A stretch of DNA of 43,136 bases from a virus: positions 1-43,136 of IMG/VR virus record IMGVR_UViG_3300004807_000003; one strand, 5' to 3'. Below the pieces are notes generated by a model. The model made no database searches and was not told the origin of the DNA. It saw only the letters and a program-made list of their open reading frames with translations. Both the position numbers and the translations under genes were made by a program. Below are positions 1,779 through 43,136 of this stretch, piece after piece; position 1 is the stretch's first letter, and every line of letters begins with the position of its first letter.

Positions 1779-1989
1779 ACTAACCCTAGACCTGGCGCGG
1801 CACACGTACCGCGTGTATCGTTTCGATTCGACAGAGCCATTGGCGCAGTACAGCAGCTTGAAGTGTGCGGCACATTCGGTGGTGATGAATCGCGGGCAGT
1901 ATGTGCAGGGGCCGCAGAACCAATTGTTTGATGTGGACGATTGCTTTCGGATTGCGGGCGATTGCCGGAAAGTGATGGCAGCGGCATGA
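1771..1989 (+). CDS. Small hypothetical protein
   Basis: This 72-residue protein starts at the ATG at 1771, inside the end of the previous gene. Starts further upstream would overlap that gene deeply and are less likely. The sequence is unremarkable (MPKLTLDLARHTYRVYRF...), with two cysteines near the C-terminus. Its stop overlaps the start of the methyltransferase by ATGA, so both are probably expressed together. Confidence 0.55.
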   Translation: MPKLTLDLARHTYRVYRFDSTEPLAQYSSLKCAAHSVVMNRGQYVQGPQNQLFDVDDCFRIAGDCRKVMAAA

Positions 1990-2840
1990 AGCCCCTAGCG
2001 TTGGATCTCTTCTGCGGTTTAGGCGGCTGGGCCGAAGGGCTGCTGGATTGCGGATACGAGGTGATCGGCTACGACATCGAGCGGCATGTCTACGGCACTC
2101 AGTTCTATCCCGGCGTGTTGATCCAGCAGAGCGTCTTGGATCTGCATGGCGCCATGTTCCGGCATTTTGATCTGATAGTAGCGTCTCCACCGTGCCAAGA
2201 GTTCAGCTATATGGCGATGCCCTGGAAGCGTGGGAAACAAGCCGCCAGAGCGTTCCGCGGCGAAGATGATTTCCCGGCAAGCTGGAGCGGTTCGCGCACC
2301 ATTGCAGACCTAACGCGGCTATTCGACGCCTGTTTCCGCATCCAAAGAGAGGCGTGTGAAGCGGCAGGGCGCCATATCCCGATGGTGGTTGAGAATGTAC
2401 GAGGCGCACAGCCTTGGGTGGGGCGGGCGAGTTGGAATTACGGCAGCTTTTACTTGTGGGGCGACGTGCCGGCCATTATGCCGTTTGCAAGGCGGCGGAA
2501 AAGCCAGCATTCGCCATTAGTGAAGACTCCACCGGGAACGGGCAACACGTCTTGGTTTTTCGGAAACTCGAAGCATGAGGGGCGGCATGGCGCGGATGAG
2601 GTCGGCAACAAAAGCGGCGGTTCGTGGTTTGGCGATTACCAAGCCCAAAAAGAAAAGCGGCAGGAAGGAATCAAAAACGGCGGCGACTGGTTTTCCACGG
2701 GACTTGGTTGCGGACGGCATTTTTCCAGCCGATCCCAAGCCCGCAAGGCCGCATCAGCACAGATTGCCAAGATACCCTACGCCTTGGCGCGGTGGGTTGG
2801 GTCGGTTTATTTGCCAGCGAGGCAGGAGCGGGCGGCGTGA
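1986..2840 (+). CDS. C5 cytosine DNA methyltransferase
   Basis: A 284-residue protein with the ordered motifs of the Dcm/HhaI family, which transfers a methyl group from S-adenosylmethionine to C5 of cytosine. Motif I is LDLFCGLGGW (residues 6-15), motif IV is ASPPCQEF with catalytic Cys70, and motif VI is VVENVRG with Glu136. The family's target-recognition domain is usually larger. Here the region after residue 160 is Gly/Trp/Lys rich (SGGSWFGDY, NGGDWFSTG) and probably reads the site. No restriction enzyme is adjacent, which fits a solitary phage methyltransferase that protects the genome from host restriction. The start was chosen at the ATGA overlap. An upstream ATG at 1941 in the same frame adds residues before motif I without need. 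Confidence 0.92.
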   Translation: MKPLALDLFCGLGGWAEGLLDCGYEVIGYDIERHVYGTQFYPGVLIQQSVLDLHGAMFRHFDLIVASPPCQEFSYMAMPWKRGKQAARAFRGEDDFPASWSGSRTIADLTRLFDACFRIQREACEAAGRHIPMVVENVRGAQPWVGRASWNYGSFYLWGDVPAIMPFARRRKSQHSPLVKTPPGTGNTSWFFGNSKHEGRHGADEVGNKSGGSWFGDYQAQKEKRQEGIKNGGDWFSTGLGCGRHFSSRSQARKAASAQIAKIPYALARWVGSVYLPARQERAA

Positions 2841-3055
2841 AACTTTTGCGTATCGAAGACGCGGCCGAGCGGCTGAACATCTCAAAGCACACACTTTACA
2901 GGTGGAATGCGGAAGGCAAAGGGCCGGCGCCTACGAAGCTGGGCGGGGTACTACGATATCGGGAGGAAGTAATTAGGGCTTATGTCGAAGCGCATGGCGT
3001 TGAATGGGTGCGATATTGCGACCCTGGCGAAGCTGTTGAATATGGAGATTACTGA
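2837..3055 (+). CDS. Excisionase/AlpA-like helix-turn-helix protein
   Basis: A 72-residue protein from a GTG start that overlaps the methyltransferase stop (GTGA). It has the winged-helix pattern of MerR/AlpA/excisionase DNA-binding proteins: IEDAAERLNISKHTLYRW, then a turn and RYREEVIRAYV. Such proteins act as recombination directionality factors or regulators. It ends about 20 bp from a tRNA-Cys 3' fragment that looks like an attP core, which favours an Xis-type role (inference). Longer upstream starts in this frame run deep into the methyltransferase and are rejected. Confidence 0.7.
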   Translation: MKLLRIEDAAERLNISKHTLYRWNAEGKGPAPTKLGGVLRYREEVIRAYVEAHGVEWVRYCDPGEAVEYGDY

Positions 3056-3425
3056 CGTATTATCAATGAGTTGGGTGGAGGCGCGGGGCGGAATCGAACC
3101 GCCGAATAAAGGTTTTGCAGACCTATATCGCGGAATAGAAAATACCCCAAAAACAGGCGTCGAGCTAGAATCCGGCGAGATTCGGTCCAAAAACGGTCCA
3201 CCTGAGAGCCTGTTCGCGGTATTGGGGCCGGAAGGGCTAACCACTTGCACCGATGAGACCGACTTCACGATTTACTTGGATCGGGAAGATGCCGAGATTG
3301 CACTGGGCGATGAAGCAGCCAACACTGGGCTGGCAGACGATGAGTTCCGGATTGTCGAATATCGGGCGGTCGACCCCAAGGCTGATTTCATGCAGAAGCT
3401 GGTGGACTTTTTTACGAATACATGA
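2982..3425 (+). CDS. Hypothetical ORF reading through the tRNA-Cys fragment
   Basis: An open frame of 147 codons. Its middle (WVEARGGIEPPNKGFADL) is only the antisense translation of a tRNA-Cys 3' half, so the N-terminal part is probably not a real protein. The C-terminal 70 residues (TDETDFTIYLDREDAEIA...DFFTNT) are acidic and protein-like. They could be a separate small gene from an alternative start such as the TTG near 3222. The 5' end overlaps the HTH gene. No family recognised. Confidence 0.35.
   Translation: MSKRMALNGCDIATLAKLLNMEITDVLSMSWVEARGGIEPPNKGFADLYRGIENTPKTGVELESGEIRSKNGPPESLFAVLGPEGLTTCTDETDFTIYLDREDAEIALGDEAANTGLADDEFRIVEYRAVDPKADFMQKLVDFFTNT
3076..3124 (-). other. tRNA-Cys(GCA) 3' half, candidate attP core
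   Basis: Read on the minus strand, the segment gives the 3' half of a bacterial tRNA-Cys. It runs from the anticodon stem with loop CTGCAAA (anticodon GCA), through the 3' stem, variable loop and a perfect T arm (GGCGG-TTCGATT-CCGCC), to the acceptor strand GCGCCTCCA with encoded CCA. The match stops at the start of the anticodon stem, and no 5' half follows. A tRNA 3' half in a phage genome is the classic attP core of elements that integrate into that tRNA gene, because integration restores the gene. The adjacent Xis-like gene supports this. Confidence 0.75.
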
Positions 3426-3605
3426 AGGCGGTAGGTGAGGCTTGGCGCTGAAGAATTGGGATGATTCGGTGCCTTGGTGCGCACTGGTAAGTGGTTGATT
3501 TTGTTGAGGATTTGAAGTGCTTCGAAGGATTTTGAAGGCTTTTGTGCGCGCTGCTTTCGATTGGCACTTTCGCCTTTTCTTTAAAATTCTTCGGATACTG
3601 CAAAA
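3426..3605. other. Gene-free stretch with short direct repeats
   Basis: I see no convincing gene here. It carries two close direct repeats, AGGATTTGAAG (3507-3517) and AGGATTTTGAAG (3526-3537), separated by TGCTTCGA. They lie about 400 bp from the attP-like core and just upstream of a promoter. They might be binding sites for an integrase, excisionase or repressor. Confidence 0.35.
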
Positions 3606-4401: not shown

Positions 4402-4491
4402 ATGCCAAATGACCGAAACGCCGCCGATGATCGCCGTGATGCGCTGTCGGGCATGGCTGAACAGAATCCAATGGTCCTAAAATTTATATGA
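4402..4491 (+). CDS. Small ORF, 29 residues
   Basis: Preceded by a purine-rich AGGAAGAG, this frame begins at ATG 4402 and ends in an ATGA overlap with the next gene at 4488. It encodes MPNDRNAADD... ending MVLKFI. The coupling at both ends makes translation plausible. No function can be given. Confidence 0.45.
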   Translation: MPNDRNAADDRRDALSGMAEQNPMVLKFI

Positions 4492-4718
4492 ATCTAGACC
4501 CTCATCCGAACTATGGAGCGGCTTTCCGAATCGCTACGATGCGTTACGGCTGGCTTCGTGACGCGGTGGGAATAGAAGATTTCCGGCAAGCGGTTTCACT
4601 GGCGGTCAGGGAGCCAGATTGGAAAGAGGGGCAAATGCGGCGGGCCGTAGATCGGGTAATGTACGCACTAGCCAGGGAAAATGATTTCGTGCGCCCATCG
4701 GCTGGTTTGCCGCGCTGA
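4488..4718 (+). CDS. 5' part of a gene split by the 56-bp inverted repeat
   Basis: This 76-residue product (MNLDPHPNYG...PSAGLPR) ends four bases after the 56-bp inverted repeat. The other copy of the repeat, near 37.2 kb, is followed in the same frame by 30 more codons (GKCGKWCKRIEEL... WLDWLTE). Joining them gives a continuous 106-residue protein, so the present product is probably truncated. Features are Trp/Arg-rich helices and, in the missing part, a CGKWC pair. Function unknown. The start is coupled to the preceding ORF by ATGA. Confidence 0.65.
   Translation: MNLDPHPNYGAAFRIATMRYGWLRDAVGIEDFRQAVSLAVREPDWKEGQMRRAVDRVMYALARENDFVRPSAGLPR
4659..4714. repeat. 56-bp perfect inverted repeat, left copy
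   Basis: From ATGTACGCACTAGCC to GGTTTGCCGCG, this segment is the exact reverse complement of 37234-37289. Homology stops sharply on both sides (left flank GGTA/CTGATA, right flank CCCC/TGGGAA on the repeat strand). It is coding in both places, within frame MYALARENDF... The two copies bound the 32.6 kb that holds the whole late operon. Confidence 0.95.
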
Positions 4719-5049
4719 TAACATCTGGACCGTCATAGACGGAAAGATCACGGCGTATGATTTCTTCGCCTACCACACAAGCGTTCCGGATACGTCGTTC
4801 AGGGGCGATGCAACGTGCCTCAACACGACTGCTGCGGTGCGGTTTCTGACCAATCCCACCCGCGTCTGTGGAACGAACTATAGCGGGGTGACGTCCGAAT
4901 TAGGCATCGCCACACCTACCGCTTATTCGTCGGTTGCCGGGAATATCTTTTTGGCGAAGTCGCCAGAGCCGTCTACATGGGCGCTGGCTGGATTGGGGTT
5001 GCTGGTGGCTGTTATGGCGAGGGGTGAGTTTAGGAAGGAAAAGGCTTGA
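4714..5049 (+). pseudogene. C-terminal part of PEP-CTERM protein, separated from its 5' end
   Basis: The frame from 4714 to TGA at 5047-5049 encodes about 111 residues (ADNIWTVIDGKITAYDFF...) ending in SPEPSTWALAGLGLLVAVMA and a basic tail. That is a textbook PEP-CTERM sorting signal: PEP motif, transmembrane helix, basic residues. Such proteins are exported and anchored by exosortase in Gram-negative bacteria. There is no signal peptide here. The frame opens out of register through the inverted repeat from an ATG at 4681. The matching secreted N-terminus lies at 37290-37493 on the other strand. Confidence 0.8.
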
Positions 5050-8600: not shown

Positions 8601-8888
8601 ACCCGAAAACTGATGCGGATACACGCCGGGATTGCTTGCCCACTCTGCCGCCGTCGCGTATTTGACGCGCTGCTGACTCGAAAGCACGTCTGCCGACCAA
8701 ACCACGCGAACGCTGTAGGCATCGGGCAGGATGCCAGCCCCGCCCGTCGTGACGCCATCCAAGCCGTTGACGATGGCCGGAAAGAGTGGAGCGCCATGCG
8801 CGTCCGTCTGGGCCGCTTGATTCCAGGCCGCGCAGGTGTTGCCGAAAACGGCCCCGGTGGAGAGAAGTAGGAGAATTGCGAGTTTCAT
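5679..8888 (-). CDS. Large secreted beta-helix appendage/spike-like protein
   Basis: A 1069-residue protein. Residues 1-16 are a clear Sec signal peptide (MKLAILLLLSTGAVFG). A fibronectin-type region around 50-145 has the pattern AYSVRVVWSAD...SGLTASTSYHF. After residue about 180 comes a long Gly/Asn/Thr-rich part with many short beta strands, including FINSIIDPSYVSN, ILIENNSIKWRDI, ATIRRNTVQF and CLVTGNVFDVI. These repeat like a right-handed parallel beta helix of the pectate-lyase type. It is the last gene of the late operon, after the fibre-like gene, which fits a tailspike or surface-binding appendage. A signal peptide is unusual for a virion protein. Start TAATG overlaps the upstream stop. 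Confidence 0.7.
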   Translation of the reverse strand: MKLAILLLLSTGAVFGNTCAAWNQAAQTDAHGAPLFPAIVNGLDGVTTGGAGILPDAYSVRVVWSADVLSSQQRVKYATAAEWASNPGVYPHQFSGSSETISNVAWPQAISFSGLTASTSYHFQPQSFDGSTWCTNLDLVATTAAAPGIVYPVPPATVTNTSSAGLTFIRTRTVGVSTGCTGANNAAALQACIGSQQPGDKIIIQHNVLYGTGGSFQFPDNPLAKPFTANLAPNYFTCAGCTSWSNWASGPYVAVGAYYPLPTGLSNSYIYKVINVGSNGPGTFNLSEDGVNALAVSDVGVGQLLIARYPDDLTDTTGNPITVVTTDGLLPPDGVRLDSSYDSQLAIIQKQGTPGQALNNCGSAPPDTCAVIELGVLSSNIHFLGIKSTTNDITVAGETVPNYFNVGITGGLLRVKQYNYGIVFDRVRVTSAPSPNSIDTAVSHGGPNGAFINSIIDPSYVSNIGRFLPASSASSNTLTLNGAAGQAGAYSYPGTGGVPAVCYVATAKTLTITGSGNFIVYLDPANSCNLVAQLQTGMSATGAGFTVTTAATPTFPVSANGRYTVLPVGSGSVSGGVVSFADYFQGEAGGIPLLFTGNQGPILIENNSIKWRDIGLFADVDGQAKCGSGCQPLSGGVKDATIRRNTVQFDRHYYAKDASWTGWGSISHTGPIETKGCWRCLVTGNVFDVIPSNFSIGMCIEHTNLNVTWPSAYPNQSWNRDVEDKFNTCINGNLGFYFSGNYGLNSYGAETYSPVNKTFWVHDNLIVSNWFYSEYSPQASATYSQPGGGSFVNNSAVNQNMLFEHNTDLARAGNTGSWLNFSIPAGAITARNNLMTYLGQIHFINSGGGGLECGGTTEINVVTCPANADWSVTSNYALPTYGTNGGDPTALIELQPGSAAGQIGAYQALWPGNTVNMIAGSTTPLSSRTAAVAWYNPTTPGNFYAPFTSDTRLKWSSPYVSGNHLATDGLNIGADIEALNSEQGAVQNVHSYSSTATSTNIAFVAPDSFGCAVDWSTAAFNGSNTWTRVSNAGGKRPQTVALSGLPSHGLVYVRVNCATVQPTLTVQLP

Positions 8889-10195
8889 TATTTGCCCATC
8901 ACAGTGAGGTTTGTTCCGTCGCAGTAGCCTAAAACGTGATTTGTGCCGCCGCCCGCGATGGTCGCTCCCCAGGTGGCCGTATTGCTGTCGGTGATACCCA
9001 AGAGCATTCCTTCAGTCGTGCTACTGCAAGCGGCCGAAATTGTTGCGAAGGTGGTGGCCGATGCGCGCGCCTGAGAAAACTCCCACGCGCCAGTTATTTT
9101 GTTGGCTCCGGTGTAGTTGTTTGCCCGCAGAGTGACGACTGCGGGAACGATGTCACAATACGGCCCGACTGCCCCGGTACCGCAGGCCATGCCCCCGGTT
9201 GGGCCTGTTTGCACGTCGAGCGTGTAATTTCCCGGTCCACTGCTGCCAATGGCAACGCTCTGATTGGGGCTCGAAAGGGTAACCCCGCTGCCGCTGCCGC
9301 AGGCCGCCCCGGTGTCCGTTAGCTGGTAAAACGCCCCCCAAGCCACGCAATGCCCCGCTGTCGGGACGCTGAACGAGGAAGGGATATAGGGGAATCGGTC
9401 TGAATACGGAGAGCCGCCGCCGATGCCAAGCTCCAACGTGGTGAAAACCGAGTTGTACTGAAGGTGCCTCGCCGCGGTATCCGACACGCCGCCGTTTGAA
9501 GGGATCGCCAAAGCGCCGGCGCCGAAGTCATTCAAATTTGTAAACACGTTCGCGGTGGCAGTGAACGCCACACCGAGCCCGTTGACAATCGACGCTACCG
9601 GAGTAGCAATGTCCGAATTGCCGATGCTGCGAAAGTCTGAAGCCGCTGGCGAACCGCTGGTCGGCCCCGCCAGGAATTGATTGGCCGCCACCGTGCCGAG
9701 TTGCGCTTTGATCTGGCTTGCGCTTGCCGATGTCAACGTGGGGCTGGAAGTGGTCGCATAGGCCACGCCCGTAAAGGCTGGCGTCGTCACCCCGCCCGTC
9801 GAAGCCGATCCCACCGTGAAGTAGAACGGCCCCGCCGTCGTGCCCCGGCTGGTCACGGTATAGGTGTAGGTCGCCCCCGGTGCCACCCAAAAGCCGAAGT
9901 TCCCCAAAGCATCGGTAGTTCCGCCGCATGAGTTCGTTCCCTGCAAGACAACTTGCTGATTGCTCGGGCAAGCCGATCCCGCTGGGCCGCTGTAGGTCGT
10001 AGCGTAATTCGTACAGGGTACGCCGTTCGCCGGAAACGCGCAAACGCTGATTTGAGCGTAGGGGACGCCTAGCAAGGTTGGCAGAGCGGGAGGCGCGACG
10101 TTCCCCCGCGTTGTAAATACCGGAGTTGGGTCAACTCGCGTGTATTGGGCAAAAAGAGGCACGGTGAGTGCCAGAAACAGCAATAGTTTACGCAT
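8888..10195 (-). CDS. Tail-fibre-like protein with signal peptide
   Basis: A 435-residue protein. A signal peptide (MRKLLLFLALTVPLFA) precedes a Cys-containing beta-rich N-terminal domain (YTRVDPTPVFTTR, CAFPANGVPCTNYA, GNFGFWVAPGATYTYTV). Low-complexity Ser/Thr/Gly segments follow. The C-terminus (WGATIAGGGTNHVLGYCDG then TNLTVMGK) is typical of phage fibre proteins (YCDG.NWTVIGK-like ends). AAAGGAC precedes the start. It lies between the internal virion proteins and the beta-helix protein, so a receptor-binding or appendage role is likely. Confidence 0.65.
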   Translation of the reverse strand: MRKLLLFLALTVPLFAQYTRVDPTPVFTTRGNVAPPALPTLLGVPYAQISVCAFPANGVPCTNYATTYSGPAGSACPSNQQVVLQGTNSCGGTTDALGNFGFWVAPGATYTYTVTSRGTTAGPFYFTVGSASTGGVTTPAFTGVAYATTSSPTLTSASASQIKAQLGTVAANQFLAGPTSGSPAASDFRSIGNSDIATPVASIVNGLGVAFTATANVFTNLNDFGAGALAIPSNGGVSDTAARHLQYNSVFTTLELGIGGGSPYSDRFPYIPSSFSVPTAGHCVAWGAFYQLTDTGAACGSGSGVTLSSPNQSVAIGSSGPGNYTLDVQTGPTGGMACGTGAVGPYCDIVPAVVTLRANNYTGANKITGAWEFSQARASATTFATISAACSSTTEGMLLGITDSNTATWGATIAGGGTNHVLGYCDGTNLTVMGK

Positions 10196-10371: not shown

Positions 10372-12126
10372 CGAAGCTGCCGCGATGCCCTTGCCGGGAA
10401 TCTTTGAAATTCCGTGCATGGTCCGCGCTGCAATCATCTGTGCGGCTGGATCGGCCATCAACTCAGGCAACACCAAGCCAGCAACCGCCCCCGGCAATCC
10501 GCCGAAGTGAGCGCCACCGATCATAGAGGCCAATGCGCCCGTCCGAGCGCCAAAACGCTGCATCACGCGCTGTGGCATATCGGCCATTCTTGCGACGGCT
10601 TCCGCCCGCTGAACAGCCGGAATGAGGCTTGAAATTCGCTGATTGAGTGGGGCCGCTTCCGGTACCGTCCGGTCAAGCTCTTTATCGAGAGCGCCGTAGG
10701 CACGTTTGCCGGTGGAGTTTACCGCTTTGTGGATGTCGGGATTCCATTGCGCGTGCTCCTGCCCAAAACCGCGCTTGAGGTCGAGGAGTTGGGAGGGTGA
10801 AACCATTTGGGGGATCTGCGGAGGCGCGATTGAACTATGAGCCTTGGCGTTTACCCCGTTTACAAACGAAGCGCCCAAAGGTGTTTTGTTGGTAGTTTGA
10901 GCCGCCCCTAAAACGTCATGGCCTAAAGATTGAGCCTCTGAAAATAGATCGCTAGCGACTCCAGCCCTACGAAAAGAAGGATCAACGTAAACTTCAAGCG
11001 GCCGAGTTTGCAGAATTGTCCCGGTTTGCGGGTCGGCTGCATATTTGAGGTACCCTATCGGCGTTCCTCTTGCATCTCGCGCCACAAGATTTACCGTAGT
11101 TCCGTTTCTGGAATTAAAACGCGGGTTTAGATCGCGTGTAATGCCTTGCGCCCCGGTCCCAAAATTCTGTAGTGTTTGATCGGCTAAAGCCATATGCGTA
11201 GGGCTTAGGTTTGGCTTTACCGGAGTAGGGGCCGCTGGCGTAGGCGCGAACTGGTCCTTTGTTAAGTGATCCATCATCGGCTCAAGTTGCGAATGAATGC
11301 TAGTGGCGTTCTGTTTCGCCGCTTGCTGCATGTGCTGGTCAATAATCTTTCGCGCTGGTGTAAGATCCGCCATGCCCGGAGCATTTTGAACAATCCGCTC
11401 TAATTCCGGCGTTAACATGCCGATACGTTCGCGGCCACTCTCCGCGATGGTTTCCGGCTGAATGCCCCGCGTCTCGTTCAGGATCGCTTTGCCGCTGGTG
11501 CGCCCAAAGCCGCGCTGTTTTGCGCCGATGCCCATGGCCGTCTCTGCCAGCCCCGGCGCAAGTTTCCCCGCCGCCGCGCCCGCCATTTCCGGCAAAAACG
11601 TAGTAATCAGGCCGCCGATGCCTTCGCCCAATCCTTCATTGGGCCGAGTCGCCCCGGTTTCGCCAGCTTGCGCCATCATTGGGCCAGTGCCAGGCATGAG
11701 GCCCGCCAAACCATACCCGATAGCCCCCGCCGCCCGTTGGCCCATGGTTTTATTGGGAGCCGTCAAAGCACCCGCTGCTTTTTGAAACATTGGGACTTGT
11801 GATTGCGCTATTTGGATAGCTGGCATTGAAGCCGAGATAGCAGGCCCAACCGATTCCTTGAACCGATGCGCCAACTTATCCGGCAAAGACATGCCTTGTT
11901 CTTCGCGTTCGCTGGCGTCCGCTTTCGCCTGTGCGCCGTGGTACATGTCCACAAACGGTTTCAGCGTGTTGTTATAGATGCCCGTCAGGACGCCTTGATC
12001 TTCGGTCTTTGGCTTGTCATTCTGCTGCCAAACCTTCCAATCGTCGTTAGCGGGGGCCGCGGCCGTCGCACCGCCAGCCGGCTTAAACTGCTTCGCTGCT
12101 TCTTCCCAAGGATCTTTTTCGGGCAT
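10327..12126 (-). CDS. Internal virion (ejection) protein with embedded GNAT-like domain
   Basis: A 599-residue protein. N-terminal Pro/Ala/Lys region, then Gly/Ala-rich amphipathic segments (AGAIGYGLAGLMPGTGPM, GEGIGGLITTFLPEMAGAAAG), then helical stretches and a hydrophobic Gly-rich C-terminus. This is typical of large internal or ejection proteins of short-tailed phages. Residues about 345-425 look different: VARDARGTPIGYLKY, LEVYVDPSFRRAGVASDLF, AQSLGHDVLG. That is the beta4-alpha3 acetyl-CoA loop pattern of GNAT acetyltransferases. It is the third of three putative internal proteins (13602, 12126, 10327). Confidence 0.65.
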   Translation of the reverse strand: MPEKDPWEEAAKQFKPAGGATAAAPANDDWKVWQQNDKPKTEDQGVLTGIYNNTLKPFVDMYHGAQAKADASEREEQGMSLPDKLAHRFKESVGPAISASMPAIQIAQSQVPMFQKAAGALTAPNKTMGQRAAGAIGYGLAGLMPGTGPMMAQAGETGATRPNEGLGEGIGGLITTFLPEMAGAAAGKLAPGLAETAMGIGAKQRGFGRTSGKAILNETRGIQPETIAESGRERIGMLTPELERIVQNAPGMADLTPARKIIDQHMQQAAKQNATSIHSQLEPMMDHLTKDQFAPTPAAPTPVKPNLSPTHMALADQTLQNFGTGAQGITRDLNPRFNSRNGTTVNLVARDARGTPIGYLKYAADPQTGTILQTRPLEVYVDPSFRRAGVASDLFSEAQSLGHDVLGAAQTTNKTPLGASFVNGVNAKAHSSIAPPQIPQMVSPSQLLDLKRGFGQEHAQWNPDIHKAVNSTGKRAYGALDKELDRTVPEAAPLNQRISSLIPAVQRAEAVARMADMPQRVMQRFGARTGALASMIGGAHFGGLPGAVAGLVLPELMADPAAQMIAARTMHGISKIPGKGIAAASLVKKAKNDNDETSQ

Positions 12127-13598
12127 TATTTCACCGTCCAGCCGTCACGCGCCGCCAAATCTTTTGCTTTCGCCGCATCGCCACCGGCAAGGGCGATGTA
12201 ATGGTTAATCACGGATCGGTTAGGCGTTCGCTCCGGGCCGCCATCGTTCGCGCCGAGGTACTTTGCCTCATTGCCGGATTTGCTGATGTCTTCCGCGAAC
12301 CGTTCCCGGCCGAGATTGACCATTTGCCGCATCTGCTCCGGCGTCAGGGTGACGCCCGAAAGAATCCCGTCATCGCTGAATCGAGCTTTCAGCCCTTGGA
12401 GCCAGGGCCGGGAATGTTCGGCTTGCTGAATAATGTCTTTCGTCATGCGCGCGCCCTTTTGCAACCCCATCGTCATGCCAAGATGGTTTGCCAAAAGCGA
12501 AAGCATGGCTTGCTGATCGTGGTTTTTAATGGCGTCTTCGTAGTTTTTCGCCATCACGTTGAACCGCTCCGCACTGTCGAGCGCGGGCTGATAGACCTTG
12601 AACGCCGCGCCCCTAGTGGCCGTGTCCTGCTTCGTGCCAGAGTTTTCGATTCTGAAGGTGTTTTGGGCCGATGGAACGAGTAGCTTTCGCCGCTCGTAAG
12701 CCTGTTTCTGTGCCGTCTCTTCCGGCGTCAGTTTTTGGCCCTGAAGCTGTTTCGCCAAAATGCCCTCATACCGCGCGTCGGCTTGTTCGGGTTTCTCCGC
12801 TTGCCCCGCCGCCTTGACTTGGTGGAGAGCTTCTACCGGATCAATCCCTTTTTTCAGTAAGGCGTCATAGGCTTGCAATTCGGGATTGCCTTCTTTCGCC
12901 ACCTTGCCGCCGTTCTTCAGTTCAATGATTTTTCCGTAGGCGCTGGCGGGGTCCATGCCCTGTCCCGTAAAGTGCTTGAATGCTTGCGTCTCCGGGTCTT
13001 CCTCAACGGGCTGATTGAGTTGGGCCGTCTGCGCTTGCGTGTGCGCCGTGGCCGCCCGTTGTTGCTGTTGCGTCAAATCAGCCGTCGCCGCCGCTTGTTC
13101 GTCACCCACCGCCCGCCGCTGTCCACTGACCAAAAGCTGATGGTGCAACGTGGTGCCAGGCGTCAACATGCCTATGTTGGGAAAGAAGCTCGAAGCGATA
13201 TCTCCCGCCACCGCCAAGCCCTTCAATAGTGGGTTGTGGTTTCCGTGGAGCACTTGGCTAACGCCGCTGCCCGTTGATTGAAGCCGATGCAATTCGCTGG
13301 CTTGAGGCGTTTCGGGTTTGCCAGGAATACCCGCCATTGACGGCGACTGAACTTCGTTCCCGGTCGGCATTTGCATTTCGCCACCTTGGAGGTTTGGCGG
13401 CTGCATGGCCGGAATTGCGCTAGGGTGCGCCACCGGAGCCGCTCCGGTGGCGCCCGTCATGCCTACGCCTTCACTGTCGGGATGCGCCCCGACTTGCATC
13501 AAGGCTTGTTTCGCGGGACTGCTCAAACCAGCAAAGGCGTTTTGGTGCGCTTGGTCGATCTCGTCAAGAATCGGGTTCTGTTGAATTGGTGCGATCAT
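12126..13598 (-). CDS. Internal virion protein-like, Gln/Ala-rich
   Basis: A 490-residue protein, mainly Gln/Ala/Lys-rich helices: QQQQRAATAHTQAQTAQL, then a repeated short motif (QGMDPASAYGKI and KGIDPVEALHQV), then a coiled C-terminal half. It lies between two other putative ejection proteins and shares their composition. It is probably an internal capsid or ejection protein (inference from position and composition; no enzymatic motif seen). It overlaps the next gene by one base. Confidence 0.5.
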   Translation of the reverse strand: MIAPIQQNPILDEIDQAHQNAFAGLSSPAKQALMQVGAHPDSEGVGMTGATGAAPVAHPSAIPAMQPPNLQGGEMQMPTGNEVQSPSMAGIPGKPETPQASELHRLQSTGSGVSQVLHGNHNPLLKGLAVAGDIASSFFPNIGMLTPGTTLHHQLLVSGQRRAVGDEQAAATADLTQQQQRAATAHTQAQTAQLNQPVEEDPETQAFKHFTGQGMDPASAYGKIIELKNGGKVAKEGNPELQAYDALLKKGIDPVEALHQVKAAGQAEKPEQADARYEGILAKQLQGQKLTPEETAQKQAYERRKLLVPSAQNTFRIENSGTKQDTATRGAAFKVYQPALDSAERFNVMAKNYEDAIKNHDQQAMLSLLANHLGMTMGLQKGARMTKDIIQQAEHSRPWLQGLKARFSDDGILSGVTLTPEQMRQMVNLGRERFAEDISKSGNEAKYLGANDGGPERTPNRSVINHYIALAGGDAAKAKDLAARDGWTVK

Positions 13599-36209: not shown

Positions 36210-36284
36210 TGGTTGCCCTGGTCCGATTTGAACGGACGGCCTTTAGGTTATGAGCCTAACGAGATACCACTTCTCCACAGGGCG
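36210..36284 (-). tRNA. tRNA-Met(CAT), initiator-like
   Basis: A complete 75-nt cloverleaf with encoded CCA. Acceptor CGCCCTG/CAGGGCA has a C1-A72 mismatch; D stem GAGA/TCTC has A11-T24; anticodon stem TTAGG/CCTAA with loop CTCATAA; 5-nt variable loop; T arm GTCCG-TTCAAAT-CGGAC; discriminator A. C1xA72 and A11:U24 are hallmarks of bacterial initiator tRNA. Two of the three usual G-C pairs of the initiator anticodon stem are present; the third is A-T. The 5' end overlaps the end of a protein gene by 29 bp. Confidence 0.92.
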
Positions 36285-37139: not shown

Positions 37140-37493
37140 TTATTCAGTCAGCCAGTCAAGCCATTGCGTCTCGACAAACCAGCCTCTCCTTTTAAGTTCT
37201 TCGATTCTTTTACACCACTTGCCGCACTTCCCACGCGGCAAACCAGCCGATGGGCGCACGAAATCATTTTCCCTGGCTAGTGCGTACATGGGGAACGCTG
37301 GGTCTAGTTGCGTGAATTGTACCGTTGTCGCCGCGCCTGTCTGGATGCCGGCTGACTGTGCCCATGGCAAATCCACACTGAGCGACACAAGCGACAGAAT
37401 GTTTGATTGATTGGGGTCGGGTGTGAACGATGTGGTGAACACCGTTGCCGACGCCGAAAAGGTTGCAAGTAAAGCTAGTACTAGTGTTTTCAT
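37140..37493 (-). CDS. Chimeric gene: PEP-CTERM protein N-terminus fused to the end of another gene
   Basis: A 117-residue frame. Residues 1-68 are a signal peptide (MKTLVLALLATFSASA) and a beta-rich start (VFTTSFTPDPNQSN, GAATTVQFTQLDPAFP). At ATG 37289 the 56-bp inverted repeat begins, and the rest (MYALARENDF...WLDWLTE) is the C-terminus missing from the gene at 4488. The PEP half continues naturally into ADNIWTVIDGK at 4714, with the PEP-CTERM signal at its end. The present product is probably a rearrangement artefact, biological or technical. Confidence 0.75.
   Translation of the reverse strand: MKTLVLALLATFSASATVFTTSFTPDPNQSNILSLVSLSVDLPWAQSAGIQTGAATTVQFTQLDPAFPMYALARENDFVRPSAGLPRGKCGKWCKRIEELKRRGWFVETQWLDWLTE
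37234..37289. repeat. 56-bp perfect inverted repeat, right copy
   Basis: Exact reverse complement of 4659-4714. It lies inside the chimeric gene and marks the right breakpoint of the 32.6-kb segment. Confidence 0.95.
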
Positions 37494-40782: not shown

Positions 40783-40904
40783 AACAGATTGAGCCATACG
40801 CAAAGATTCCGGACGGGTGGGAGTACGGTGTCAGGTCTCCGAACAATACCTACGATTGGATCAACTTTAAGTGGACCGAAACCCAAGAGGAGGTAGAGGC
40901 GTGA
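40779..40904 (+). CDS. Small hypothetical protein, 41 residues
   Basis: GTG 40779 overlaps the previous stop (GTGA), and the frame ends in a second GTGA overlap with the annealase gene. It encodes VKQIEPYAKIPDGWEYGVRS then an acidic, aromatic end. The coupling makes it a likely real gene; function unknown. Confidence 0.5.
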   Translation: MKQIEPYAKIPDGWEYGVRSPNNTYDWINFKWTETQEEVEA

Positions 40905-41902
40905 GCAGCGAACTAGCAGTAATGGAGCAACAGCAACAGGTTCAATCGTTTGAGTGGACTCCTGAAAAAACACAGCTTCTAAAAGACACGATTTGCAAGG
41001 GCGCCAGCGATGAAGAGTTACGGCTGTTTGCCGAGGTTTGCAAATCAAAGAAGCTCGACCCATTTTCAAAGCAGATTTATGCCATGAAACGGTATGACTC
41101 GACGCTTCGCCGGGAAACCATCACGTTTCAGACGGGCATAGACGGGTTCCGAACCCTGGCTCAAAGAACGGGCCATTACGCAGGGCAGGACGCGCCGGAA
41201 TGGTGCGGGGACGATGGGCAGTGGGTAGACGTGTGGCTGAAGGATCAAGCGCCAGCGGCCGCGCGTGTGTCGGTTTACCGTCACGGCTTCGTCAAGCCCA
41301 CATGCCGAGTCGCCCTTTACCGGGAGTATCTGCAAACCGACAGAGAAGGCAAGCCTAATTCCATGTGGCGCAAGATGCCAGCGAACCAGCTTGCCAAGTG
41401 CGCGGAAGCCTTGGCGCTTCGTGCGGCATTCCCGGAAGAGTTGAGCGGCTTGTATACCTCGGACGAGATGGGCCAAGCCGATAACTACACGCCAACGACA
41501 GAAGAAGCCAGAAAAGAAGTCATTGCGCGGCGGTTGAAGGAGACGGCGGCAACGCCAAGCTCCGAAGAGGAACCAACGCGGGAACAATTCGAGGCCATCG
41601 TGAAGGCCGCGAAGGTGCCGCAACTGAACTTCATCATGGTCAAGCTAAACGAGCGGTTCATCCAGCATTGCGGCGGGGAAGTGCCAGCATCCCTTCAACA
41701 GCTTGCACTCATCAACGACGCGAAGGCCGGCGCAAAGCATTGGCGCGATCTGGACGAAAACCAACGCAAGGCGGTTGCCCTGGCGATGTTTGACAAGTTG
41801 CAGGAGCCGATGCCGGCGGCAGAGATGCAGCAAGCGCGGAAGGCTATTGAGCAGCTTTGCCGTGAGGTCGAGACAGCCGAGAAACAACAGGTGGAGGTTT
41901 AG
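40901..41902 (+). CDS. Bet/RecT-family single-strand annealing protein
   Basis: A 333-residue protein from a GTG start coupled to the previous gene. The core matches phage Bet proteins: KKLDPFSKQIYAMKRYD, TFQTGIDGFRTLAQRTGHYA, then CRVALYREYLQT, WRKMPANQLAKCAEALALRA and AFPEELSGLYTSDEM. These proteins coat single strands and anneal complementary ones in phage recombination. A helical C-terminal region follows. It directly precedes SSB. No alkaline exonuclease is next to it; the VRR-NUC protein may serve instead. Confidence 0.9.
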   Translation: MSSELAVMEQQQQVQSFEWTPEKTQLLKDTICKGASDEELRLFAEVCKSKKLDPFSKQIYAMKRYDSTLRRETITFQTGIDGFRTLAQRTGHYAGQDAPEWCGDDGQWVDVWLKDQAPAAARVSVYRHGFVKPTCRVALYREYLQTDREGKPNSMWRKMPANQLAKCAEALALRAAFPEELSGLYTSDEMGQADNYTPTTEEARKEVIARRLKETAATPSSEEEPTREQFEAIVKAAKVPQLNFIMVKLNERFIQHCGGEVPASLQQLALINDAKAGAKHWRDLDENQRKAVALAMFDKLQEPMPAAEMQQARKAIEQLCREVETAEKQQVEV

Positions 41903-42316
41903 ATGCCATCAATGAATCAGGTTTTCATCGCGGGGCATTTGGGAAAAGATGCCTTGGTCTCCTTCACCCCAACGGGCAAGTCGGTCACCAAGTTCTCGGT
42001 AGCGACTACCCGCAAGTGGAAGGACGAGCGCAACGAGTGGAAGGAAGAAACCACGTGGCTCAACGTTGTCGTCTGGGGGAAGGATTGGCTTGGGCCGAAG
42101 CTCCTTCGAGGCGTGGGTGTGATGGTCAAGGGTCGTTTGTCTGTCAGCAATTACCAAAACAAAGACGGCCAGAAAGTCTGGAGAACGGAGATCGTGGCCG
42201 AGGACTGCATGATCGTGGAGGGCAAAGAGAAGGACGAGACAGCGCCACGGCAGAGCGCACCGCAGGAGCCAAGGCCGCACGAGGACGCGATTAGTGATGA
42301 CGATGTGCCGTTTTGA
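41903..42316 (+). CDS. ssb: Single-stranded DNA-binding protein
   Basis: A 137-residue SSB with an OB fold: MNQVFIAGHLGKD, a WLNVVVWGK strand, VMVKGRLSVSNYQNKDG, and the acidic C-terminal tip DDDVPF that recruits partner proteins. Starts directly after the annealase stop. It binds single strands during replication and recombination and likely works with the adjacent annealase. Confidence 0.93.
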   Translation: MPSMNQVFIAGHLGKDALVSFTPTGKSVTKFSVATTRKWKDERNEWKEETTWLNVVVWGKDWLGPKLLRGVGVMVKGRLSVSNYQNKDGQKVWRTEIVAEDCMIVEGKEKDETAPRQSAPQEPRPHEDAISDDDVPF

Positions 42317-42404: not shown

Positions 42405-43136
42405 ATGGAGCAAACAGAAAACAAACAAGCGCTTGCTATGGCGCATCAATGGACGCACGACGGCAGAGAAGTGATGCTGGTGAAGTGCGTCGGCAAAGAC
42501 GGCACCAGCTATAACGGTTTTAGGTGGCCGCTTGAAATAGGCGCTACCGTGGAAGCGCCCGACTGGGACGCCAAGGCCGAATGCGGCCACGGCCTGCACG
42601 GCTGGCCGTGGGGTTTACACATCGGCGACGGGAAAGACCCGGATTGGTCTTCCACTTGGATCATATTTGGCGCACTGCCAGCAGAAGTAATCGACCTCGG
42701 CGGGAAGTGCAAGGCCAAGCAATGCGTGATCCGGCACGTCGGCACGTGGCAAAGTGCAACTGCTTTCGTACTCGCTGGTCAAATGGCGCTTGTCGCCTCT
42801 GCGTCTACCGGAACTTCAGCCACGGGCTACAGCAGCGCGAGTTCAGCCACGGGCTACAGCAGCGCGAGTTCAGCCACGGGCGACAGAAGCGCGAGTTTAG
42901 CCACGGGCGACAGAAGCGCGAGTTTAGCCACGGGCGACAGAAGCGCGAGTTTAGCCACGGGCTACAGCAGCGCGAGTTTAGCCACGGGCTACAGCAGCGC
43001 GAGTTCAGCCACGGGCGACAGAAGCGCGAGTTTAGCCACGGGCGACAGCAGCGCGAGTTCAGCCACGGGCGACAGAAGCGCGAGTTTAGCCACGGGCGAC
43101 AGCAGCGCGAGTTCAGCCACGGGCGACAGCAGCGCG
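42405..43136 (+). CDS. N-terminal domain and repeats of tandem-repeat protein (continues at 1)
   Basis: Open from ATG 42405 to the end. Residues 1-130 form a domain seen in many phage repeat proteins (DUF7666-like as I recall): YNGFRWPLEIG, VEAPDWDAKAECGHGLHGWP, IGDGKDPDWSS. Then come 9-residue repeats of S/L-A-T-G-Y/D-S/R-S-A-S, each encoded by a 27-bp unit. The frame continues into 1-333 after removal of the 87-bp overlap, giving about 325 residues. No signal peptide or membrane segment. Function unknown; the repeats suggest an elongated, possibly self-assembling rod. Confidence 0.85.
   Translation, partial: MEQTENKQALAMAHQWTHDGREVMLVKCVGKDGTSYNGFRWPLEIGATVEAPDWDAKAECGHGLHGWPWGLHIGDGKDPDWSSTWIIFGALPAEVIDLGGKCKAKQCVIRHVGTWQSATAFVLAGQMALVASASTGTSATGYSSASSATGYSSASSATGDRSASLATGDRSASLATGDRSASLATGYSSASLATGYSSASSATGDRSASLATGDSSASSATGDRSASLATGDSSASSATGDSSA
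42811..43136 (+). repeat. 27-bp tandem coding repeats
   Basis: Twelve near-identical 27-bp units (consensus TCAGCCACGGGCGACAGCAG plus CGCGAGT) with limited variation at three codons: TCA/TTA, GAC/TAC and AGC/AGA. The last 87 bases (43050-43136) duplicate the start of the window. Variation is confined to Ser/Leu, Asp/Tyr and Ser/Arg positions. Confidence 0.9.

Follow-up and report, generated by a model that had tools for sequence, protein, structure and literature searches.

The window (the whole stretch of DNA analysed, 43,136 nucleotides, IMG/VR record IMGVR_UViG_3300004807_000003) carries an unusual arrangement close to its left end. A C5-cytosine methyltransferase gene (1986-2840, plus strand) is the upstream neighbour of a gene for an AlpA/Xis-like HTH_17 protein of 72 residues, read from a GTG start (2837-3055, plus strand). 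After a gap of only 20 bp (3056-3075) follows the 3' half of a tRNA-Cys, which reads on the minus strand from the anticodon loop to the CCA end (3076-3124, hereafter the core). An open reading frame of 147 residues (2982-3425, plus strand) runs through the core and contains ARGGIEPPNKGFAD, the translated tRNA half. Further phage genes of the record encode a portal, a terminase, a tail protein, a lysozyme-family protein, a VRR-NUC nuclease (330-683), an SSB protein (41903-42316) and a RecT recombinase (40871-41902; the last three all on the plus strand), the nearest RecT relative from another phage being that of G039 (IMGVR_UViG_3300010048_000021). The record also bears a complete tRNA-Met gene (CAT anticodon, possibly of the Ile2 type) at 36210-36284 on the minus strand.

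On its minus strand the core matches 11 complete Acidobacteriota tRNA-Cys genes letter by letter, at 49 of 49 positions (L002, L003, L007, L008, L009, L012, L015, L017, L020, L021 and L022). Two further contigs (L011 and L018) hold tRNA-Cys 3' halves only, likewise identical over all 49 bases. On one side the identity is lost in the region of the anticodon stem (3125), on the other directly after the CCA (3075). Exact copies of the 37-nt inner pattern (3087-3123) were found in 21 stretches of genome_contigs (one genome per species), the majority of them titled Acidobacteriae or Acidobacteriota, Bryobacterales or Bryobacteraceae, or Terriglobia, and at the Acidobacteriota matches ARAGORN calls complete tRNA-Cys genes. 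Because 49 bases are identical, chance is ruled out as the source of the match. A sequence-only reading of this DNA had proposed a tRNA-Cys 3' half as attP core on the minus strand and had suggested naming the host through bacterial tRNA-Cys genes; the identity through the CCA confirms the former, and the latter leads to Acidobacteriota.

In the window itself neither ARAGORN nor Rfam at its gathering score reports a tRNA at the core, and RF00005, run permissively over the record, yields only a partial match (19.9 bits, 3085-3146). There is no tRNA-Cys 5' half anywhere in the window and no second copy of the T-arm, and the fold at the tRNA half does not go beyond chance (z = -1.1). A complete or split tRNA was rejected on the negative ARAGORN and Rfam results, the absent 5' half and the ordinary fold. 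The two outcomes that the sequence-only reading had named as refuting it, no bacterial tRNA-Cys with this sequence or a complete tRNA gene at this place, both failed to appear. The best reading of 3076-3124 is the attP core of a tyrosine-integrase module aimed at the Acidobacteriota tRNA-Cys: the identity runs through the tRNA 3' end and the tRNA gene is incomplete, as in tRNA-type attP sites generally, while the adjacent integrase gene of such sites is lacking.

The gene at 2837-3055 matches HTH_17 (3e-12) and the PHROG family 'excisionase and transcriptional regulator' (2.5e-9), so that an excisionase-like gene does end 20 bp from the core, as had been noticed from the letters. Its domain, its small size and its position beside an att site agree with the excisionase/AlpA-like class and support a Xis/AlpA-type product, a candidate directionality factor, even though the HTH_17 domain is found in other regulators too and some depositors label the similar Gordonia phage proteins merely as MerR-like HTH. 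A back-translated scan of viral contigs confirmed no relatives of this gene. The frame at 2982-3425 shows coding-like codon use, also after the core, and has no homologues outside the core; integration would swap out its N-terminal part. An N-terminal 'LAKLL' bears a faint, non-significant likeness to the C-terminal box of integrases. We do not claim an integrase remnant in this frame: the candidate (LAKLLNMEITDVL) scores 0.9 bits, which several per cent of shuffles equal, and the LAKLL score falls within the shuffle distribution.

The whole record, translated in six frames, gave no match at E<=10 to PF00589 (Phage_integrase) or PF00239 (Resolvase), profiles for which 14/14 and 13/14 control genomes, respectively, were positive. 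Unfiltered searches of all frames with integrase HMMs built from related elements gave nothing above chance. An integrase elsewhere in the record is thus rejected, and the earlier statement that the genome has no tyrosine or serine integrase stands after the profile search for recombinases it had called for. An integrase of its own, as a functional temperate phage has, is not recognisable in the record, and the ORFs scanned include no CI-type lysogeny repressor, though divergent repressors could escape such a scan.

Elements integrated at the same tRNA-Cys show what occupies this position in relatives. In L007 an HTH_17 gene is followed by a 387-aa tyrosine integrase and then tRNA-Cys; L018, a contig of the same genome, carries the tRNA-Cys 3' half alone and then a VirB4-like gene, and is read as the other end of the L007 conjugative element. 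In L009 the order is HTH_17 gene, 390-aa integrase and, a few bp past the stop codon, tRNA-Cys, with L011 providing the matching half. The halves on L011 and L018 belong to elements other than the window phage. In L012 an integrase ends about 90 bp from tRNA-Cys, and the record of phage G001 begins right at the CCA of tRNA-Cys, with a tyrosine recombinase gene near its opposite end. That recombinase (L165, 4522-5088) seems very short, 188 aa from the ATG with the catalytic domain only. The L007/L018 and L009/L011 modules share with the window the core sequence, the side and the orientation of the HTH_17 gene, but have a tyrosine integrase of 387-390 aa between xis and core where the window has 20 bp.

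A comparable case is phage G039. Its RecT is 68% identical to that of the window over the aligned part, its Xis (HTH_17) is 36% identical (E 1e-7), and it too has a tRNA 3' half as attP. The order is HTH_17 gene, overlapping integrase, 40-odd bp and the tRNA 3' half; the integrases of L007, L009 and G039 can be aligned along their length and fill the place of the 20-bp gap with about 1.1-1.2 kb. G039 differs from the window by this integrase (about 376 aa or more), by a different tRNA target and by arm-type repeats, GGTTGCC being repeated on both sides of its attP (L169). Around the window core (2837-3470) there is only one 11-bp, chance-like repeat; nor are arms clearly visible in L007 and L009, which do have an integrase, on the sides looked at.

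As an adjacency control, 76 related viral records, plus G001, were screened for tRNA and Phage_integrase. An integrase is present in 22/76, many of the screened records being fragmentary so that its absence there is no proof. Partial tRNA matches (sub-threshold, E<=0.05) occur in 8 records besides the window, and in seven of them (G001, with the distance measured across the record ends, G039, G048, G058, G062, G072 and G078) an integrase lies within about 0.85 kb. The eighth, G082, has a full-length tRNA (28.9 bits against a cut-off of 29) without integrase, which leaves the window as the sole clear tRNA half without integrase among the records screened.

The first 25 kb of the record match no named phage at the DNA level, and the terminases of named phages are at most 26% identical to that of the window. 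The majority of terminase relatives have no recognisable integrase. This includes a 44-kb contig in a Bryobacterales genome bin, which carries a terminase relative and a full structural block (the terminase scan in host genomes covered 257 genomes of one order). Together with the tRNA-Cys identity, this contig supports an Acidobacteriota host for the window phage. On L024, where the terminase relative is 55% identical, an int-alpA RNA (RF02996, 38.8 bits) is located at 9591-9658, about 1.85 kb beyond an integrase.

Taken together, we favour (with a probability of roughly two in three) the view that this is an orphan module of xis and attP, whose integrase has been deleted or did not come along when the module was acquired. 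The ancestral type would be xis, int and attP in this order, now without int, which may have been deleted or left out when recombination captured the xis-attP end. Loss or int-less capture fits best because in the relatives the space between xis and the tRNA core is the very place of int, and an integrase was presumably once present here too; capture is conceivable because RecT and SSB are encoded, and the scarcity of recognisable integrases among the terminase relatives allows either history. As no sister genome turned up for the xis-attP junction, be it with int or without, deletion and int-less acquisition are indistinguishable. The phage would be unable to integrate or excise by itself, and probably leads a lytic life now or, at best, depends on the integrase of another element in the same cell. 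Its xis and core would then be relics, with xis perhaps retained as a DNA-binding regulator. That every core base is intact suggests recent int loss or continuing use; that no arm-type repeats are visible around it makes present use somewhat less likely, even if the integrase were borrowed.

It had also been suggested that the integrase was lost through the rearrangement of this genome. Loss remains among the best-fitting accounts, but the rearrangement lies elsewhere. A perfect 56-bp inverted repeat (4659-4714 and 37234-37289) splits a PEP-CTERM protein gene into an N part (37493-37290, minus strand) and a C part (4714-5049, plus strand), which join directly in frame (QLDPAFP-ADNIWTVIDGK), and splits a second gene (4488-4714 with 37233-37140). 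This looks like a 32.5-kb inversion with 56 bp duplicated at the breakpoints, and its 37-kb junction is present in a second contig too (L023/L103). We rejected the inversion as the cause of int loss: its breakpoints are at least 1.5 kb from the core and leave the xis-attP junction untouched. The inverted segment contains no recognisable integrase. The gene so split (4681-5049 and 37140-37493), with its signal peptide and PEP-CTERM sorting motif, is an unusual cargo for a phage.

It is unlikely, though the best of the alternatives, that the phage still integrates by means of a tyrosine integrase from a different prophage or ICE, resident at this tRNA-Cys or aimed at it, while the phage's Xis-like protein sets the direction. 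The perfectly conserved core and intact xis would agree with this, and several integrase-bearing Acidobacteriota elements (L007/L018, L009/L011, L012 and phage G001) target the same tRNA-Cys. Nonetheless, a lambda-type integrase would need arm-type repeats, and none are visible around the core; beyond the core the window has no arm sequence in common with the integrase-bearing tRNA-Cys elements; and no provirus of the window phage was seen when genome_contigs was scanned for the 37-nt core. We consider it rather improbable that the phage is an obligate borrower, which retains an exact tRNA-Cys attP and a directionality factor of its own but can enter only those chromosomes in which an ICE or prophage residing at this tRNA-Cys provides the integrase, a logic comparable to that of phages using the host XerCD.

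Alternatively, an integrase could be real but missing from the record, either lost at a repeat array or dropped because the assembly was wrongly joined across the 49 bp that attP, attB, attL and attR have in common. Both record ends lie inside a 27-bp tandem array (42761-43136 and 9-195), in which one frame is open on both sides and encodes TGD[SR]SAS[SL]A repeats of a DUF7666/phrog_18079-like protein. The second contig (IMGVR_UViG_3300025598_001677), which matches about 14.7-43.0 kb at 99.9-100% identity, likewise breaks off inside the array and lacks 1-14.7 kb, so that the attP, outside its span, has a junction resting on one assembly. Against a gap, phrog_18079 matches the left and right parts of the record in order; since the ends share one array and one protein family spans both, the record very likely represents a whole circle that was opened within the array. 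An integrase would moreover be expected beside attP rather than in the array. A wrong join at 49 bp would require short k-mers, and the array gene and the split gene (4488-4714/37140-37233) tie both flanks of the core to the same phage. We therefore regard a missing integrase as improbable.

A divergent recombinase of unknown type, acting at the attP of the window, is very improbable. Several ORFs have no family match, some of them of 400-500 aa (for example 8888-10195 and 12126-13598), but the larger ones sit within the structural block, and a related phage contig has partners for them in the same order; the tyrosine and serine recombinase profiles are negative at E<=10 and there is no candidate near attP, which speaks against the very divergent integrase entertained by the sequence-only reading. 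Least credible is a transduced scrap of host DNA or a regulatory RNA decoy: it would account for the absent integrase, but the tRNA half ends exactly at the CCA and the anticodon region beside a Xis-like gene, as do other tRNA attP sites, and its fold is no better than chance.

The finding ties a phage that had no other host assignment to Acidobacteriota and shows how, in nature, an integration module can lack one gene while its site and putative directionality factor persist. It also gives a warning that a tRNA-half attP alone is insufficient to call a phage temperate. If the integrase were borrowed, this would amount to integrase parasitism between elements with one tRNA in common.

Temperate phages enter the chromosome at docking sites such as the ends of tRNA genes, and in the attP of lambda-type tyrosine integrases that use tRNA genes the core restores the tRNA 3' half upon integration. 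The core of the window would do likewise, but the window differs from these sites in having no integrase and no recognisable arms. A narrow search of the open-licence literature found no direct precedent for an attP without integrase (PMC6755750 and PMC13026187 were considered and neither is one). Both tRNA-half attP sites and the loss of mobility genes are already known (PMC6379469). In 'grounded' prophages with an inactivated integrase, such loss leaves att sites behind, much as an att site is left in the window; these prophages, however, are fixed in chromosomes, whereas the window holds an uninterrupted attP in a phage-sized record (PMC6379469).
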